The position numbers and the translations under genes are program-made. The notes under the pieces were generated by a model. The model searched no databases, had not been told where the DNA came from, and saw only the letters and a program-made list of their open reading frames with translations. 64,000 bases of DNA from Janthinobacterium tructae (GTDB lineage: Bacteria > Pseudomonadota > Gammaproteobacteria > Burkholderiales > Burkholderiaceae_D), in contig NZ_CP041185.1 in assembly GCF_006517255.1 (NCBI RefSeq), positions 248,001-312,000 of the forward strand, in the 5' to 3' direction. This document shows, piece after piece, positions 18,767 through 23,843 of the stretch; position 1 is the first letter of the stretch; each line of letters starts with the position of its first letter.

Positions 18767-20278
18767 GTGCTACCGAATGTTGGAGATGTTTACAGTGTGT
18801 TTTCGTCCGAGTTGCAGCAGTACGTGGCTTGCCAGGTCACCCGCGTCAAGGATGCTTCATCGTCCAGGCCGTTAGCTGCCGTGCTGGAGCTGGACTGGGC
18901 CGGTGACGCCTTGCCCGATGCGGCCGCCGTGCAAGCCATGCGGCCGCTGCTGTGCGATTATTCCTTCTGGAACAAGCGTCACGATCACTGCTATGCCTCG
19001 GCGAACGTGCCGCCTGGCCATACCCTCGTCGGCAATATCGCGCCGCTGGTGGATGTGGAAGTCAACAGCTACCGCAGCGGCTGGAACGTGGGCGACAGCG
19101 TGCTGCGCCAGCGGACCTGGGAGCGCATCGATCCGCTGCGGCGCCAGCAGTTCAAGGCCGCGTCGCGCGAGCGTGAAGTGACGCTCGGCGGCCACGTCTT
19201 CCGCCAGAACGCGACGAAAATCAATGACAGCGTCTTGCAGGCGCTGGGTGACCTGTCCGAACTGGAGCAGCTGCCTTGCCTGATGTCCATCGAGACCAGC
19301 CACGGCACGCCAGCCTTGATGGAGTTTATCCAGGGCAATCCCTTCATTAATGAGCTGGACTGGCAATCATCGACGGTGCATGCGCTCGATTTCAGCGGCA
19401 GCGGCCTGGAACGCCTGATCCTGCAGCCCGATGGCGTCAGCAGCCTGGTCTTGAACAAAGGCTTGGGTCTGCTCGCGCTGCGCAGCGCGCCATCGCCGGC
19501 GCTGCGCATCAAGGATGGCGCCGATGGCCGCCATCTGACACTGCAGTGCAAGCAGACTCTGCCGCCGTTCCACGGTCTCGACCAGTTGGGCGGCCTGTCG
19601 CTGGTCGGCATGAAAGAAGTCGATCTGGCGCAAGTGGCGCAGCGCTTTCCTCACCTGACGGCCTTGCGTATCTGGGGCAAGCCGGGGCTGGCGTCGCAGA
19701 TGGCCAGCCTTGCGCAGCTGACTCAGTTGCGGATGTTCACCGCCTGTGATCTGTTCGCTTACACGGCGGAGGAGTTTCCATCGGTCTCGCAATTGCCGCA
19801 GTTGTCGGTCCTGTGGCTGACCAGCTTGCCCGCCGATGCCGCCAAGGCCATCAAGGCCGGCTACAAGAAAGCGGCGGCGCTGGGACTGGATTTGTCGGTC
19901 ACCAAGGCGCGCAAGCCGGAATGGCTGGCGGAAAACCTGCTCAACCCGTTCCGCGACTGGGATGGCCGCGAACATATTTCCCCTGCGTATGCGAAAAAGG
20001 CGGCGCTGGCCTACAAGAACATGCTGGCCGTGACGCGCGGCATCGATGCCGCCATGGCGGCGACGGCGGCGGCCGCCGCGCTGGAAGCGATGGTCACCGC
20101 CTATGTCGCGGAATTCAACAAGATCGAGCGGCGGACGAGCATCATCGAGACGGTCGAGCGCGAGGAAATTTATACGGTGCTGGCGGAATTGCTGGCCCAA
20201 CTGGCGCAGCAACTGGGGCCGGCGCTGGTCGACGAGGCGGCCTTGCTGGCGCTGTTCGACCGCTTGCGCGAGTTCTAG
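18767..20278 (+). CDS. LRR-like protein with an Imm26-like N-terminus
   Basis: A 503-residue cytosolic protein I cannot assign firmly. The N-terminal 60 residues (VGDVYSVFSSELQQYVACQV) recall the GD(V/I)F-type start of Imm26-like immunity domains. Residues 190-345 show irregular leucine-rich repeats with phrases such as LERLILQPDGVSSLVLNKG, LGGLSLVGMKEVDLAQVAQ and LPQLSVLWLTSL. The last 130 residues are helical and Ala-rich. There is no signal peptide or membrane helix. Translation starts at a GTG with AAGGA 7 nt upstream. A role in protein binding, perhaps immunity or signalling, is suggested by the architecture alone. Confidence 0.7.
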   Translation: MLPNVGDVYSVFSSELQQYVACQVTRVKDASSSRPLAAVLELDWAGDALPDAAAVQAMRPLLCDYSFWNKRHDHCYASANVPPGHTLVGNIAPLVDVEVNSYRSGWNVGDSVLRQRTWERIDPLRRQQFKAASREREVTLGGHVFRQNATKINDSVLQALGDLSELEQLPCLMSIETSHGTPALMEFIQGNPFINELDWQSSTVHALDFSGSGLERLILQPDGVSSLVLNKGLGLLALRSAPSPALRIKDGADGRHLTLQCKQTLPPFHGLDQLGGLSLVGMKEVDLAQVAQRFPHLTALRIWGKPGLASQMASLAQLTQLRMFTACDLFAYTAEEFPSVSQLPQLSVLWLTSLPADAAKAIKAGYKKAAALGLDLSVTKARKPEWLAENLLNPFRDWDGREHISPAYAKKAALAYKNMLAVTRGIDAAMAATAAAAALEAMVTAYVAEFNKIERRTSIIETVEREEIYTVLAELLAQLAQQLGPALVDEAALLALFDRLREF

Positions 20279-20294
20279 GGCCATCGCCGAGCCA

Positions 20295-20328
20295 TCTAGA
20301 AAAAAAGTTCTAGACGCGAAGTTCTAGA
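20295..20328. promoter_or_regulatory. Three TCTAGA operator cores at 14-bp spacing upstream of blaI
   Basis: TCTAGA occurs at 20295-20300, 20309-20314 and 20323-20328, exactly 14 bases apart. The third is embedded in the perfect palindrome GTTCTAGAAC and the second in GTTCTAGA. They lie 18-50 bases before the blaI start and overlap a possible promoter (TATTCT at 20334-20339). Dyad operators of this size are typical for BlaI/MecI-type repressors, so these are the likely BlaI sites. Confidence 0.7.
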
Positions 20329-20345
20329 ACGGGTATTCTGGCGGC

Positions 20346-20738
20346 ATGTTAAAAAATACCTCCACTCCCCATCCCACGGCCGCCGAACTGGACCTGCTGC
20401 GCATCCTGTGGCGGCGCGGTCCGTCCGATGCCAGGGCCGTGTACGACGCCTTGGCCGAAGAGCGTGCCGACGCCAGCTACGCCACCGTGCTGCGCCAGTT
20501 GCAGCTGATGCATGGCAAGGGACTCTTGAGCCGCGATGAAAGTCAGCGGCCGCAGCTGTATGCGGCCGTCGACGCGCAGGAAAAGTTGCAAACGAGTTTG
20601 CTCAAGGATTTGATCGGCAAGGTGTTTTCCGGTTCCGGCAAGGCGCTGGTGCTGACGGCGCTGCGCGAGCACGTGAGCGACGCGGAGCGCCTGGAAATTG
20701 AAAAGATCCTGCGCAGCAAGGACGGCAAGGCGCCATGA
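20346..20738 (+). CDS. blaI: BlaI/MecI-family repressor
   Basis: A 130-residue winged-helix repressor of the BlaI/MecI/CopY family. The N-terminal domain shows TAAELDLLRILWRRGPSDAR followed by the recognition part ASYATVLRQLQLMHGKGLLS, and the C-terminal helices form the dimer interface. In the classical system BlaI blocks its own operon and a beta-lactamase gene until a BlaR1-type protease causes its cleavage. Here the gene overlaps the BlaR1-like gene by 4 bases, a metallo-beta-lactamase follows, and repeated TCTAGA sites precede it. No strong ribosome-binding site is visible. Confidence 0.92.
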   Translation: MLKNTSTPHPTAAELDLLRILWRRGPSDARAVYDALAEERADASYATVLRQLQLMHGKGLLSRDESQRPQLYAAVDAQEKLQTSLLKDLIGKVFSGSGKALVLTALREHVSDAERLEIEKILRSKDGKAP

Positions 20739-22492
20739 ACCTGGACATGCGCTTGGGCATCGAGTTGGGCAAGCTTGTCCCGGCGCTGGGCTGGGTCTTG
20801 CTGTATTTTGTCTGGCAGGGCGTGATCGTCGGCGCCGTCTCCGCTGTACTGCTCTGGCTGCTGCGCCATGCCAGCGCGCGCTGGCGCTATGCCGTCTGCG
20901 CGCTGGCACTGCTGCTGTGCCTGTGTATTCCCACCATCCATCTGCTGTCTCTGCTGTCCGGCACTTCACTGGCCCAGCTGCCGATGGCTGCGCCGCCCGC
21001 CTGGCGCGCCGCACTGCAAGCGTGGATGCCGGCCCTGGTGCTGGCCTGGAGCGCCGGCGTTGGCCTGATGAGCTTGCGCCTGTGCCTGGGCCTGGCCTGG
21101 GTCGGCAGGCTGCGGCGTCAGGCCGTGGCCGCCCCGGCCATCTGGCAGGCGCGCCTCGATGCGCTGGCGCTGCGCATGGGCTTGCACCGGCGGCTGCCGC
21201 TGAAGCTGCATGCTGGCCTGGCCAGTCCCGTCACCGTGGGCTTCTGGCGCCCCGTCATCCTGCTGCCGGCCGCCTTGCTGAGCGGCATGCCCGTCGCCTT
21301 GCTCGAAGCGCTGCTGGCGCATGAACTGGCGCACGTGCGGCGCTGGGATTACCTGGTCAATCTGTTGCAAAGCGTGGCCGAAGCGCTGCTGTTCTTCCAC
21401 CCCGTCGTCTGGTGGCTGTCGGCGCGCATGCGGGCCGAACGGGAACAGGTGGCCGACGCGCTGGCTGCGCAAGCGCTGCAAGACCCGCAGCAGCTGGCCA
21501 CGGCCCTGCATGCGCTATCGCTGCACACGGCCGCGCCGCAACATTCCGGCTTGCTGATGTCGGCCCGCGGCGGGGCGCTGCTGACGCGCATCGAACGCCT
21601 GATGGCCCCCGGCCCCGACACGGCCGGCTGGAAACTGGCCGTGCCGGCCTTGCTGCTGGCCTGCGCCACCTTGCTGTTGCAGGTGCAGGGCAAGCCTGCC
21701 GTCAGCGGGGCGACCCTGGCCGAGGCCGCCGTCGCGATGCTGGACTTGCCCGTCAGCGCGAAACACATGCTGGTATTTGACGACAGCACGGGCCAGGTTC
21801 TGATGGCGAAAGATGCGGATGCCGTCGTGCCCATCGCCTCGATCACCAAGCTGATGACGGCCATGGTGGTACTGGACGCGGGACTCGATCCCGATGAACA
21901 GCTGCGCATCGTGCGGGCCGATGGGGATGCTTCGCTGCAGCGCCACAGCCTGCTGGCCGATGGCGTGGCCGTGTCGCGCGGTGCGCTGTTGCAACTGGCG
22001 CTGCTGCCATCGGAAAACCGCGCCGCCGCCGCGCTGGCGCGTACCTATCCCGGCGGCAGCGCGGCGTTTCAGCAGGCACTGCAGGCAAAGATCCGGCACC
22101 TGGGCTTGCACCGCACTACCTTGCTGGACCCGGTCGGCAGCTCGCCCACGAATACGTCCACGGCCAGCGAGGTGGCGAAGATCGTCGCGGCGGCCGCGCG
22201 CTATCCGGACATCGCGCGCATCACCAGCCACCCGCAGGCCAGCGTGGCCGTCAATGGCAAGGTCCGTACCTTGCGCAACACCAACCCGCTGGTGGGCGGC
22301 AAGGGCTGGGACATTGTGCTGTCCAAGACGGGCAGCAGCCATGAGGCCGGCAGCTGTCTGACCATGCGCATGCGCAGCGGCGGCAAGCACGTCACCGTGG
22401 TGTTGCTGGACGCCGACGGCGCGCAGCGGCGCTCGCTCGACGCCGGCCACATCCGCGACACCCTGGCCGACAGGACTGGCCGCATGCACTGA
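20735..22492 (+). CDS. BlaR1-like M56 metalloprotease fused to S11 D,D-peptidase domain
   Basis: A 585-residue inner-membrane protein. The first half is an M56 (BlaR1/MecR1) protease with several N-terminal helices, the zinc motif HELAH at 196-200 and a further helix near 301-317. The second half, from about 335, is a penicillin-recognising serine peptidase of the S11 (PBP7/PbpG-like) class: S369-x-x-K372 (SITK), S426-E-N and K531-T-G. Classical BlaR1 carries a class D beta-lactamase-like sensor at this place; an S11 domain is different. Beta-lactam acylation of Ser369 could activate the protease to destroy BlaI. Start overlaps blaI (ATGA); a terminator-like hairpin and then the metallo-beta-lactamase follow. 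Confidence 0.9.
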   Translation: MNLDMRLGIELGKLVPALGWVLLYFVWQGVIVGAVSAVLLWLLRHASARWRYAVCALALLLCLCIPTIHLLSLLSGTSLAQLPMAAPPAWRAALQAWMPALVLAWSAGVGLMSLRLCLGLAWVGRLRRQAVAAPAIWQARLDALALRMGLHRRLPLKLHAGLASPVTVGFWRPVILLPAALLSGMPVALLEALLAHELAHVRRWDYLVNLLQSVAEALLFFHPVVWWLSARMRAEREQVADALAAQALQDPQQLATALHALSLHTAAPQHSGLLMSARGGALLTRIERLMAPGPDTAGWKLAVPALLLACATLLLQVQGKPAVSGATLAEAAVAMLDLPVSAKHMLVFDDSTGQVLMAKDADAVVPIASITKLMTAMVVLDAGLDPDEQLRIVRADGDASLQRHSLLADGVAVSRGALLQLALLPSENRAAAALARTYPGGSAAFQQALQAKIRHLGLHRTTLLDPVGSSPTNTSTASEVAKIVAAAARYPDIARITSHPQASVAVNGKVRTLRNTNPLVGGKGWDIVLSKTGSSHEAGSCLTMRMRSGGKHVTVVLLDADGAQRRSLDAGHIRDTLADRTGRMH

Positions 22493-22503
22493 TACCCCCC
22501 CCC

Positions 22504-22533
22504 GGGCGCGCCAGTGCGGGCGCCCTTCTTTTT
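22504..22533 (+). terminator. Hairpin with T-rich tail between the BlaR1-like and beta-lactamase genes
   Basis: A 6-bp GC stem (GGGCGC / GCGCCC) with a 10-base loop is followed by TTCTTTTT. It lies between the sensor gene and the beta-lactamase start and could end most transcripts, leaving partial read-through into the lactamase gene. Confidence 0.6.
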
Positions 22534-22550
22534 ACACTCTGGAGATGAAG

Positions 22551-23513
22551 ATGACACTATTGGCGAAGTTGATGCTGGCTACGGTTGCGACCATGGCGGC
22601 AAGCACGGTGCAGGCAAAGACGCCGGCCCCGGTGCAGGATAAACCTGTTGATTGCGACAGTTGCAAGGAATGGAATGCGCCCGTCAAGCCATTCAATATC
22701 CATGGCAATAGCTGGTATGTGGGCACGGCCGGCCTGTCCGCCGTGCTGGTGACGAGTCCGCAGGGCCATATCCTGCTCGACGGCGCGCTGCCGCAATCGG
22801 CGCCCCTGATTGTGGAAAACATCAAGGCGCTGGGCTTTCGCATCGAGGATGTGAAAGTCATCCTCAATTCGCATGCGCATTGGGACCATGCGGGCGGCAT
22901 TGCCGCGCTGCAACGTGCGAGCGGCGCCACGGTAGTGGCCAGCGCCTCGGGCGCGCTGGGGCTGCAAAGCGGCACGAATGGCAAAGATGATCCGCAATAC
23001 CAGGCTGATCCCGTCGTGCATGTCGCGAAAGTCGCCAAGGTCAAGGTGGTGGGCGAGGGCGATACCGTCAAGGTGGGCCCATTGGTATTGACCGCCCACA
23101 TGACACCGGGCCACACGCCCGGCGGCACGACATGGACCTGGACCTCGTGCGAAGGCGCGCGCTGCCTGAACGTGGTGTACGCGGATAGCCTGAACCCGTA
23201 TGCCAGCGGTGATTTCACGTATACAGGAAAAGGCGCAGGCAAAGGCAAGACGCCCGATATTTCGGCCTCGTTCGAAGCGAGCATCGCCAAGGTGGCCGCC
23301 TTGCCATGCGACATCATCATCCCCGTGCATCCGGGCACGACGGACGTGCTGGGCAAGGCGGCCAAGCGCAGCGGCACGGACAATCCCCTGATTGACGCCA
23401 ACGCCTGCCGCGCCTATGCGGCCGAAGCGGGCGGCTTGCTGGCCAAGCGCCTGGTGAAAGAGCGGGGCCTTGCCTTGCCTGCGGAAGCCAAGGGTGCCGC
23501 GCACGCGCATTAA
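22551..23513 (+). CDS. bla: Subclass B3 metallo-beta-lactamase (THIN-B-like)
   Basis: A 320-residue periplasmic zinc beta-lactamase of subclass B3, expected to hydrolyse penicillins, cephalosporins and carbapenems. A signal peptide ends at TVQA near residue 22. The B3 zinc ligands are all present: HAHWDH at 108-113 (His, His, Asp, His), His188 in TPGHTPGG and His260 in PVHPG. Ser (ADSL) stands where B1 enzymes have Cys. The ATG at 22551 is preferred because GGAG lies 6 nt upstream; the ATG at 22545 abuts it. The enzyme class matches THIN-B of Janthinobacterium; identity cannot be judged here. Upstream are the BlaI and BlaR1-like genes. Confidence 0.93.
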   Translation: MTLLAKLMLATVATMAASTVQAKTPAPVQDKPVDCDSCKEWNAPVKPFNIHGNSWYVGTAGLSAVLVTSPQGHILLDGALPQSAPLIVENIKALGFRIEDVKVILNSHAHWDHAGGIAALQRASGATVVASASGALGLQSGTNGKDDPQYQADPVVHVAKVAKVKVVGEGDTVKVGPLVLTAHMTPGHTPGGTTWTWTSCEGARCLNVVYADSLNPYASGDFTYTGKGAGKGKTPDISASFEASIAKVAALPCDIIIPVHPGTTDVLGKAAKRSGTDNPLIDANACRAYAAEAGGLLAKRLVKERGLALPAEAKGAAHAH

Positions 23514-23519
23514 ACGGTT

Positions 23520-23843
23520 TTACCCGGCCGCCTGCTGCTGTTTTTGCAGGCGTTTCAGGAACACCGTCATTTCCTTGACGGCTTGCAGGTCGCCTTGCTG
23601 CTGGGCTACTGTGACGCCCGTGGCCCAGGCGGCCTGCGCTTCCTCCAGCCGGCCCAGCTGGTGCAGGGCCTTGCCCAGCAGTTTCCAGGCGGCCGAGTAG
23701 CCGGGTTGTTGCACGGTGGCTTGCGCCAGATGCAGGGCCGCTTGCTCGGCGTCATGCTCTTTCAGGCAGGCATCTCCCAGGCCAAAGCGCAGCAGGGCGC
23801 TGTCGCGTCCCTGCGCCAGCAGTTTTTCCAGTTTTTCACGCAT
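23520..23843 (-). CDS. Small TPR-repeat protein
   Basis: A 107-residue cytosolic protein made almost only of tetratricopeptide helices, with the pattern ALLRFGLGDACLKEHDAEQA, AALHLAQATVQQPGYSAAWK and LLGKALHQLGRLEEAQAAWA. It would be a protein-binding adaptor. I start at the ATG at 23843, which has GAGG 6 nt upstream; the frame is open for eight codons more, across an inverted repeat. It ends 7 bases from the convergent metallo-beta-lactamase gene. Confidence 0.82.
   Translation of the reverse strand: MREKLEKLLAQGRDSALLRFGLGDACLKEHDAEQAALHLAQATVQQPGYSAAWKLLGKALHQLGRLEEAQAAWATGVTVAQQQGDLQAVKEMTVFLKRLQKQQQAAG

Follow-up and report, generated by a model that had tools for sequence, protein, structure and literature searches.

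The locus described here lies in a 64,000 nucleotide (nt) stretch of the Janthinobacterium tructae genome (assembly GCF_006517255.1, contig NZ_CP041185.1, positions 248,001 to 312,000 of the forward strand), hereafter the window, and consists of three genes arranged head to tail on the + strand (20346-23513): blaI, a gene encoding a fusion of an M56 protease with an S11 peptidase, and a THIN-like B3 metallo-beta-lactamase gene. The original prediction had placed blaI at 20346-20738, with a 4-base overlap to a gene for an M56 protease (HELAH) carrying the S11 motifs SITK, SEN and KTG in its C-terminal half, followed by a B3 metallo-beta-lactamase gene, and all of these elements were confirmed by open reading frame (ORF) coordinates and by Pfam and NCBIfam models. 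Two features absent from that prediction were identified, namely an operator- and promoter-like sequence ahead of blaI (20297-20340) and a hairpin with a T-rich run (at about 22504-22533). The features are as follows (aa, amino acids).

20297..20340, + strand: proposed tandem BlaI operator, TAGA-N8-TCTAGA-N8-TCTAGA-N8-TCTG, period 14 (sequence pattern)
20311-20316 and 20334-20339, + strand: promoter-like pair TAGACG / 17 nt / TATTCT, 8/12 matches, overlapped by the proposed operator
20346..20738, + strand: BlaI/MecI-family repressor, 130 aa (Pfam Penicillinase_R, 8e-18; solved relatives MecI/BlaI)
20735..22492, + strand: M56-S11 fusion, 585 aa, proposed beta-lactam sensor/protease (Pfam, NCBIfam, predicted structure)
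21014..21541, + strand: M56 protease domain, residues 94-269, with HEXXH (H196-H200) and E237xxxD241 (Pfam Peptidase_M56, 1e-22)
21749..22417, + strand: S11 (PBP7-type) domain, residues 339-561, with S369xxK372, S426xN428 and K531-T-G533 (Pfam Peptidase_S11, 7e-44)
about 22504..22533, + strand: GC hairpin and T-rich run, terminator- or attenuator-like, in the 52-nt gap between sensor and lactamase genes (terminator scan, alignment)
22545..23513, + strand: THIN-like subclass B3 metallo-beta-lactamase, 322 aa (NCBIfam models)

The fusion was shown to carry the HEXXH and ExxxD motifs of the BlaR1/MecR1 M56 protease, the former as HELAH (H196-H200), together with all three motifs of Peptidase S11/PBP7, i.e. 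SxxK as SITK (S369/K372), SxN as SEN (S426/N428) and KTG (531-533). The S11 half is of the PBP7 or D-Ala-D-Ala endopeptidase type, although its score with NF008668 (PRK11669) was 204.6 bits, under the cut-off of 294, and its nearest solved chains, on which sequence and fold searches agree, are 6azi and 6muq. Solved beta-lactam complexes are found among its S11 relatives (5zqb, 5zqc, 3ita and 6ntz, with penicillin, ampicillin and meropenem). A free-standing S11 protein of the source genome is 47% identical, and the three motifs are shared with PBP7/PbpG; unlike PBP7/PbpG, which is a free-standing periplasmic protein with a signal peptide of its own, the S11 domain here starts at about residue 339, tethered behind the M56 domain and a predicted helix, and is encoded in a regulatory operon. 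The C-terminal domain thus differs from the class-D-like sensor of BlaR1/MecR1, and the fusion does not pass the NCBIfam blaR1_generic model (53.9 bits, cut-off 400).

The predicted structure of the fusion (mean predicted local distance difference test score, pLDDT, 78; predicted template modelling score 0.49; 13-row alignment) places long helices at residues 11-42, 48-75, 89-129 and 299-317 around the M56 domain and the S11 fold after the last of these, with pLDDT below 50 at 294-302 and 312-336. BlaR1/MecR1 transducers have four membrane helices, the protease lying on the inner and the sensor on the outer side. The 50 rows listed by a fold search against the PDB were all S11-type or related D,D-peptidases except for one designed hydrolase, and BlaR1 was absent among them; the assignment of the M56 half therefore rests on sequence, by which it matches 8exs (1e-4), and not on the fold search.

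An alignment of 73 distinct fusions (two rows incomplete) revealed that H196, E197, H200, D205, E237, D241 and R285 of the protease and S369, K372, S426, N428, K531 and T532 of the S11 domain are invariant wherever covered, the sole exception among the motif residues checked being G533, which is retained in 71 of 72. L057, with an internal stop, was left outside this set, L167, flagged with two stops, was represented by its open frame, and L109, which an ORF-based rule places among the unfused since its BLAST match runs past a stop, was counted as fused. The protease residues of Staphylococcus aureus BlaR1 are given in PMC9834060 as H201EXXH, E242xxxD246, Asp210 and Arg294; those of the fusion correspond to HEXXH, ExxxD and Asp210 and probably also to Arg294, the correspondence being the ungapped offset of the 8exs match, which ends at residue 245, with Arg294 placed only by its position near the following helix.

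The downstream enzyme passed the B3 lactamase model NF033105 (341.8 bits, cut-off 240). Its best named family is THIN (NF000440, 606.6 bits), which relates it to THIN-B of Janthinobacterium lividum, although the score is under that model's cut-off of 700. It contains HAHWDH, HTPGG and PVHPG, which we take to be the zinc-site motifs, and its N-terminus is signal-peptide-like by eye. Beta-lactams reportedly elicit metallo-beta-lactamase production in J. lividum, which would support the relay proposed below. Two more B3-like matches, neither with the operator proposed here, are present in the source genome (G000:C1:145220-146092, 51%, and 4749911-4750813, 46%), and in one other genome the lactamase appears as two overlapping matches near the C-terminus (G008:C1:4830253-4831217).

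Within the genus, the full fusion was found in 32 of 40 genomes, and a THIN-type lactamase lies directly downstream in all 32; loss of this adjacency, which the original prediction had named as grounds for its rejection, was not seen. The fusion and the THIN-type gene are both missing from the other eight (G002, G003, G011, G022, G027, G028, G029 and G038), in which the best lactamase-like matches show at most 51% identity; two of these genomes are less than 90% complete (G029, 88%; G038, 82%). A BlaI-family repressor gene (Penicillinase_R match) adjoins the fusion in the window, as for the BlaR1/MecR1 sensor-transducers, and at all 30 genus loci L001-L030.

Fusion loci beyond the genus were drawn from a family search, named contigs, one plasmid and an order search, giving 43 distinct loci which, as the named contigs are the best 80 of 278 relatives, constitute a sample and not a census. 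The family search (1e-80) yielded a fusion match in 52 of 392 genomes, 20 of them outside the genus. The order search (1e-115) yielded three full fusions in 399 genomes beside the window's own (G100, G1055 and G1083), while G049 has a match to M56 alone; among the 10 genomes in the family of G1055, the full fusions are again G1055 and G1083. No full fusion beyond the window's own was found in a class-wide sample of 369 genomes at 1e-85, where G403 matched in M56 only and G604 in S11 only; the thresholds of 1e-85 and 1e-115 may miss distant fusions. One of 97 matching records in a plasmid collection spans at least 80% of the fusion, and this copy is annotated merely as 'M56 family metallopeptidase'. 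Eight rows duplicate other loci (L101-L104, L106, L108, L111 and L114), and L052 and L168 were kept among the 43 although they stop short of the downstream gene or shortly past it.

A lactamase gene was identified downstream of the fusion at 18 of these 43 loci, and four lactamase classes are represented: B3 at one (L051), class A at four (L062, L065 (Herbaspirillum ASV7), L112 (Paucibacter) and L161 (Paraburkholderia caribensis plasmid)), class C at eight (seven Undibacterium-type loci, behind a TonB receptor, and L092 (Paucibacter)) and class D at five (four Achromobacter and one Bordetella genomosp. 1, of OXA-114/OXA-364 type). All nine partners submitted to NCBIfam class models passed them (four class A, two class C and three class D), and the remaining six class C and two class D partners are 62-96% identical to model-passing ones; weak class-C-like matches at L100 (26%) and L120 (26%, 5e-8) were not counted. 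The class D gene overlaps the fusion by 4 bp in Bordetella genomosp. 1, fusion and lactamase abut as called in Achromobacter UMC71, and on the Paraburkholderia plasmid 46 bp separate the fusion from a gene annotated 'class A beta-lactamase'. In a control set of M56 loci without S11, a lactamase-like match was observed at one of 46 distinct loci (L143, 28%, other strand). The control comprised 47 rows, of which L137 duplicates L077; L123, whose contig ends inside M56, was excluded, and the unfused L163 and L169 stand outside the count. The same lactamase queries were applied to both sets, so that unlike lactamases would be missed in both, flanks spanned ~4-6 kilobases (kb), with less for L166-L168 and where contigs ended, and the loci are not independent events in either set. 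Outside the genus, 42 of 43 fusion loci have BlaI alongside, L107, the remaining one, beginning inside M56; of the 47 control rows, 42 have BlaI and five show none.

The proposed operator was examined by pattern searches. TAGA-N8-TCTAGA-N8-TCTA, with at most one mismatch, has the blaI site as its sole match in the source genome (two overlapping registers), a reversed control pattern has none there, and no operator copy was found ahead of the lactamase gene in either the window or the genome pattern search. Given this single match, BlaI probably has one target operon, in which case control of the lactamase would require read-through. Across the genus, again with at most one mismatch, the pattern occurs in 34 of 40 genomes; 32 of these are the fusion carriers, where it lies at the fusion locus, and the other two, G003 and G011, share another sequence that G032 has too. 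Two of the 40 genomes (G014 and G016) contain a match to the reversed control. Ahead of blaI, chains of at least two TAGA-N8-TCTA units are present in 72 of 73 fused and 38 of 42 unfused cases, and they occur in 1 of 5750 shuffled sequences; it is only the chains of three units that are enriched among the fused genes (52/73 versus 4/42). The operator was considered as a hallmark of the S11 fusion and rejected, as the unfused genes have chains of two or more units too; shared in this way, it is a trait of this BlaI branch. Many relatives have TAGACA where the window has TAGACG. The -10-like TATTCT ends 6 nt before the blaI ATG (20334-20346) in the window and close relatives alike, so that the blaI mRNA may be leaderless. 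Upstream of this region lies a 503-aa ORF (18767-20278) without a Pfam or NCBIfam match, which is 58-93% identical in relatives, stands ~2 kb from blaI in L086 and was not seen in some; it is probably outside the circuit.

Phylogenetic comparison of the M56 domain (43 unfused rows, L109 and 38 of the 73 distinct fusions) required two changes between the fused and unfused states, and starred branches force two, so that a single origin of the fusion is not demonstrated. Two acidobacterial rows fall among the fused, and the long branches L112, L070, L167 and L168 are unsure. The S11 tree (33 fused rows and nine free-standing, of which two are identical) has little resolution in its deep branches and groups L167 with free-standing proteins.

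Among known systems, the closest is BlaR1/MecR1-BlaI/MecI of staphylococci and bacilli, in which a BlaI-family repressor is likewise accompanied by a membrane-bound M56 protease ending in a penicillin-binding-type domain and by a lactamase, and with which the fusion shares HEXXH, ExxxD and probably Arg294; the present system differs in its S11 (PBP7-type) sensor, in neighbouring lactamases of four classes and in the TAGA/TCTA half-sites of its proposed operator. The original prediction had contrasted Gram-positive BlaI/BlaR1 control with AmpR- or two-component control in Gram-negatives. BlaR1-type sensors that have a class-D-like domain are indeed known in Gram-positives, and PMC9834060 mentions a mycobacterial homologue that lacks an equivalent sensor. 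That contrast requires a limit, however, since PMC5967600 reports, for Massilia, Duganella and Janthinobacterium sp. HH01, BlaR1-like proteins that carry a class D domain and are encoded ahead of bifunctional lactamases of the LRA-13 type, and BlaI-M56 pairs lacking S11 occur in the same family and in Lysobacter. As described there, the LRA-13-linked proteins belong to the same family, have a BlaR1/MecR1-type domain and an adjoining lactamase and, in Massilia strains, a regulator; they differ in carrying a class D sensor and not S11, and in Massilia the regulator and BlaR1 are inverted relative to the lactamase. In a second BlaI-M56 pair of the genus (L075-L080, e.g. L075 and L076) the M56 protein ends in a TonB C-terminal domain (TonB_C); these proteins have BlaI upstream, an M56 domain 44-47% identical and a related tandem operator, and differ in that C-terminal domain and in having no lactamase match beside them. 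At L075-L077 and L079 the pair is neighboured by a gene for a 345-aa product, which in L075 looks Gfo/Idh-like by eye. No description of the M56-S11 version was found in the open PMC papers searched. BlaR1-like sensors with a class D domain are thus already known in this family, and the S11 version appears to be new, for which the genomic case is strong.

Taken together, these data suggest, with a probability of roughly three in four, that the fusion acts as a BlaR1-like one-protein relay with an exchanged PBP7-type sensor and controls a blaI-sensor-blaTHIN operon. What the data show is the conserved gene order, an operator-like sequence, catalytic residues retained in both domains and partner lactamases that have been exchanged. 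In the resting state, BlaI would occupy the tandem operator and repress its own operon. A periplasmic beta-lactam would acylate Ser369 of the S11 domain, the signal would pass, along the presumed final membrane helix, to the M56 protease in the cytoplasm, and the protease would cleave BlaI, upon which the operon would be transcribed through the hairpin into the lactamase gene and the B3 enzyme would destroy the drug. Beyond gene order, residues and operator-like sequence, we infer operator binding, acylation, transmembrane signalling, BlaI cleavage, induction and read-through past the hairpin by analogy to BlaR1, as described in PMC9834060 and PMC7593790.

Several observations weigh against this interpretation. 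For 25 of the 43 fusion loci found beyond the genus, the stretch retrieved contains no lactamase. A TonB-dependent receptor is the first downstream gene at all 17 Undibacterium-type loci (L053-L061, L063, L064, L066-L070 and L211), with class C behind it at seven; a receptor of this kind also lies downstream in G1083 (L168/L210). The next gene at eight Roseateles/Pelomonas/Paucibacter-type loci (L092-L099) encodes a flavin adenine dinucleotide-dependent oxidoreductase (Pfam DAO in both of those scanned), which is followed by class C in L092, and an esterase-like gene lies downstream at three (L100, L107 and L117). Such variety downstream favours a broader wall or antibiotic response over a switch devoted to lactamase alone; the anatomy and the S11-M56-BlaI-lactamase logic of the original prediction hold, but many relatives have downstream genes other than lactamases. 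The 18 lactamase-positive loci are related and not 18 independent events, the M56 tree (22 labelled rows) requiring at least four changes of partner class, and the operator is common to BlaI-M56 pairs without S11 and so is no mark of a beta-lactam circuit. The site of BlaR1 Tyr261, placed by offset only, shows T, L, R, S, Q and C as its six commonest letters and no tyrosine, and the BlaI cleavage site, Asn-Phe in S. aureus (PMC9834060), is not visibly kept (LVLTAL here versus LVLNFV in MecI). Finally, in the window, as in 25 close relatives, the sensor gene is set apart from the lactamase gene by a terminator-like hairpin.

This hairpin bears on the possibility that the lactamase is free of BlaI, the blaI-sensor transcript ending there and the lactamase having its own constitutive promoter. 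The hairpin and T-run are present at 26 of 33 loci examined, i.e. the window and its 25 close relatives (L001-L026), with a gap of 48-55 nt and at least two stem versions among the 26 (12 of which were aligned), and the lack of an operator copy ahead of the lactamase fits the same view. At the seven more distant loci (L027-L030, L051, L071 and L072), however, the gap is ~0-17 nt (homology estimate) and contains no hairpin. Furthermore, a promoter scan of 20200-23700 (at least 9/12 matches) returned no site in the gap or elsewhere, a weak result, as it also misses the proposed blaI promoter, and the adjacency of fusion and lactamase is complete within the genus. An independent lactamase is improbable. 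A tight operon may have been ancestral, with a partial terminator arriving in one branch and perhaps setting the sensor:enzyme ratio.

A serious rival, though an unlikely one on balance, is direct peptidoglycan sensing, in which the S11 domain would chiefly report the state of the wall, with cross-links or muropeptides as slow substrates, the lactamase being one output of wall damage and beta-lactams acting indirectly. The D,D-endopeptidase (PBP7) type of the domain, its complete active site and the variety of genes downstream (TonB receptor, DAO oxidoreductase, esterase) argue for it, as does the title of PMC3305447 ('A Peptidoglycan Fragment Triggers beta-lactam Resistance in Bacillus licheniformis'), whereas the presence of four lactamase classes next to a single type of sensor is in keeping with a beta-lactam or beta-lactam-associated signal. 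Very improbable by comparison is that the fusion is a membrane-tethered wall enzyme whose M56 domain controls a target other than BlaI, with incidental neighbours: both active sites do appear intact, but BlaI, with an operator of one type, stands beside practically every fusion locus within and outside the genus. Within the preferred relay, the sensor may also read peptidoglycan, given how many loci lack a lactamase and have other genes in its place. A broader proposal, for which the odds are about even, is that these proteins form a separate Burkholderiales class of beta-lactam/peptidoglycan receptors, in which a PBP7-type D,D-endopeptidase was captured by a BlaR-type protease and came to lie beside lactamases of all four classes, TonB receptors and oxidoreductases. 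Being an active wall enzyme, such a receptor would respond to the drug and also to the condition of its natural target.

If the BlaR1-like relay is correct, lactamases of several Gram-negative genera, including the OXA-114-like enzymes of Achromobacter, would share an overlooked receptor, which suggests a modular Gram-negative route for switching on resistance. It would also mean that wall enzymes, and not only relatives of class D lactamases, can give rise to a penicillin receptor, and the two sensor types could then be compared for the drugs they see and for how they signal across the membrane.

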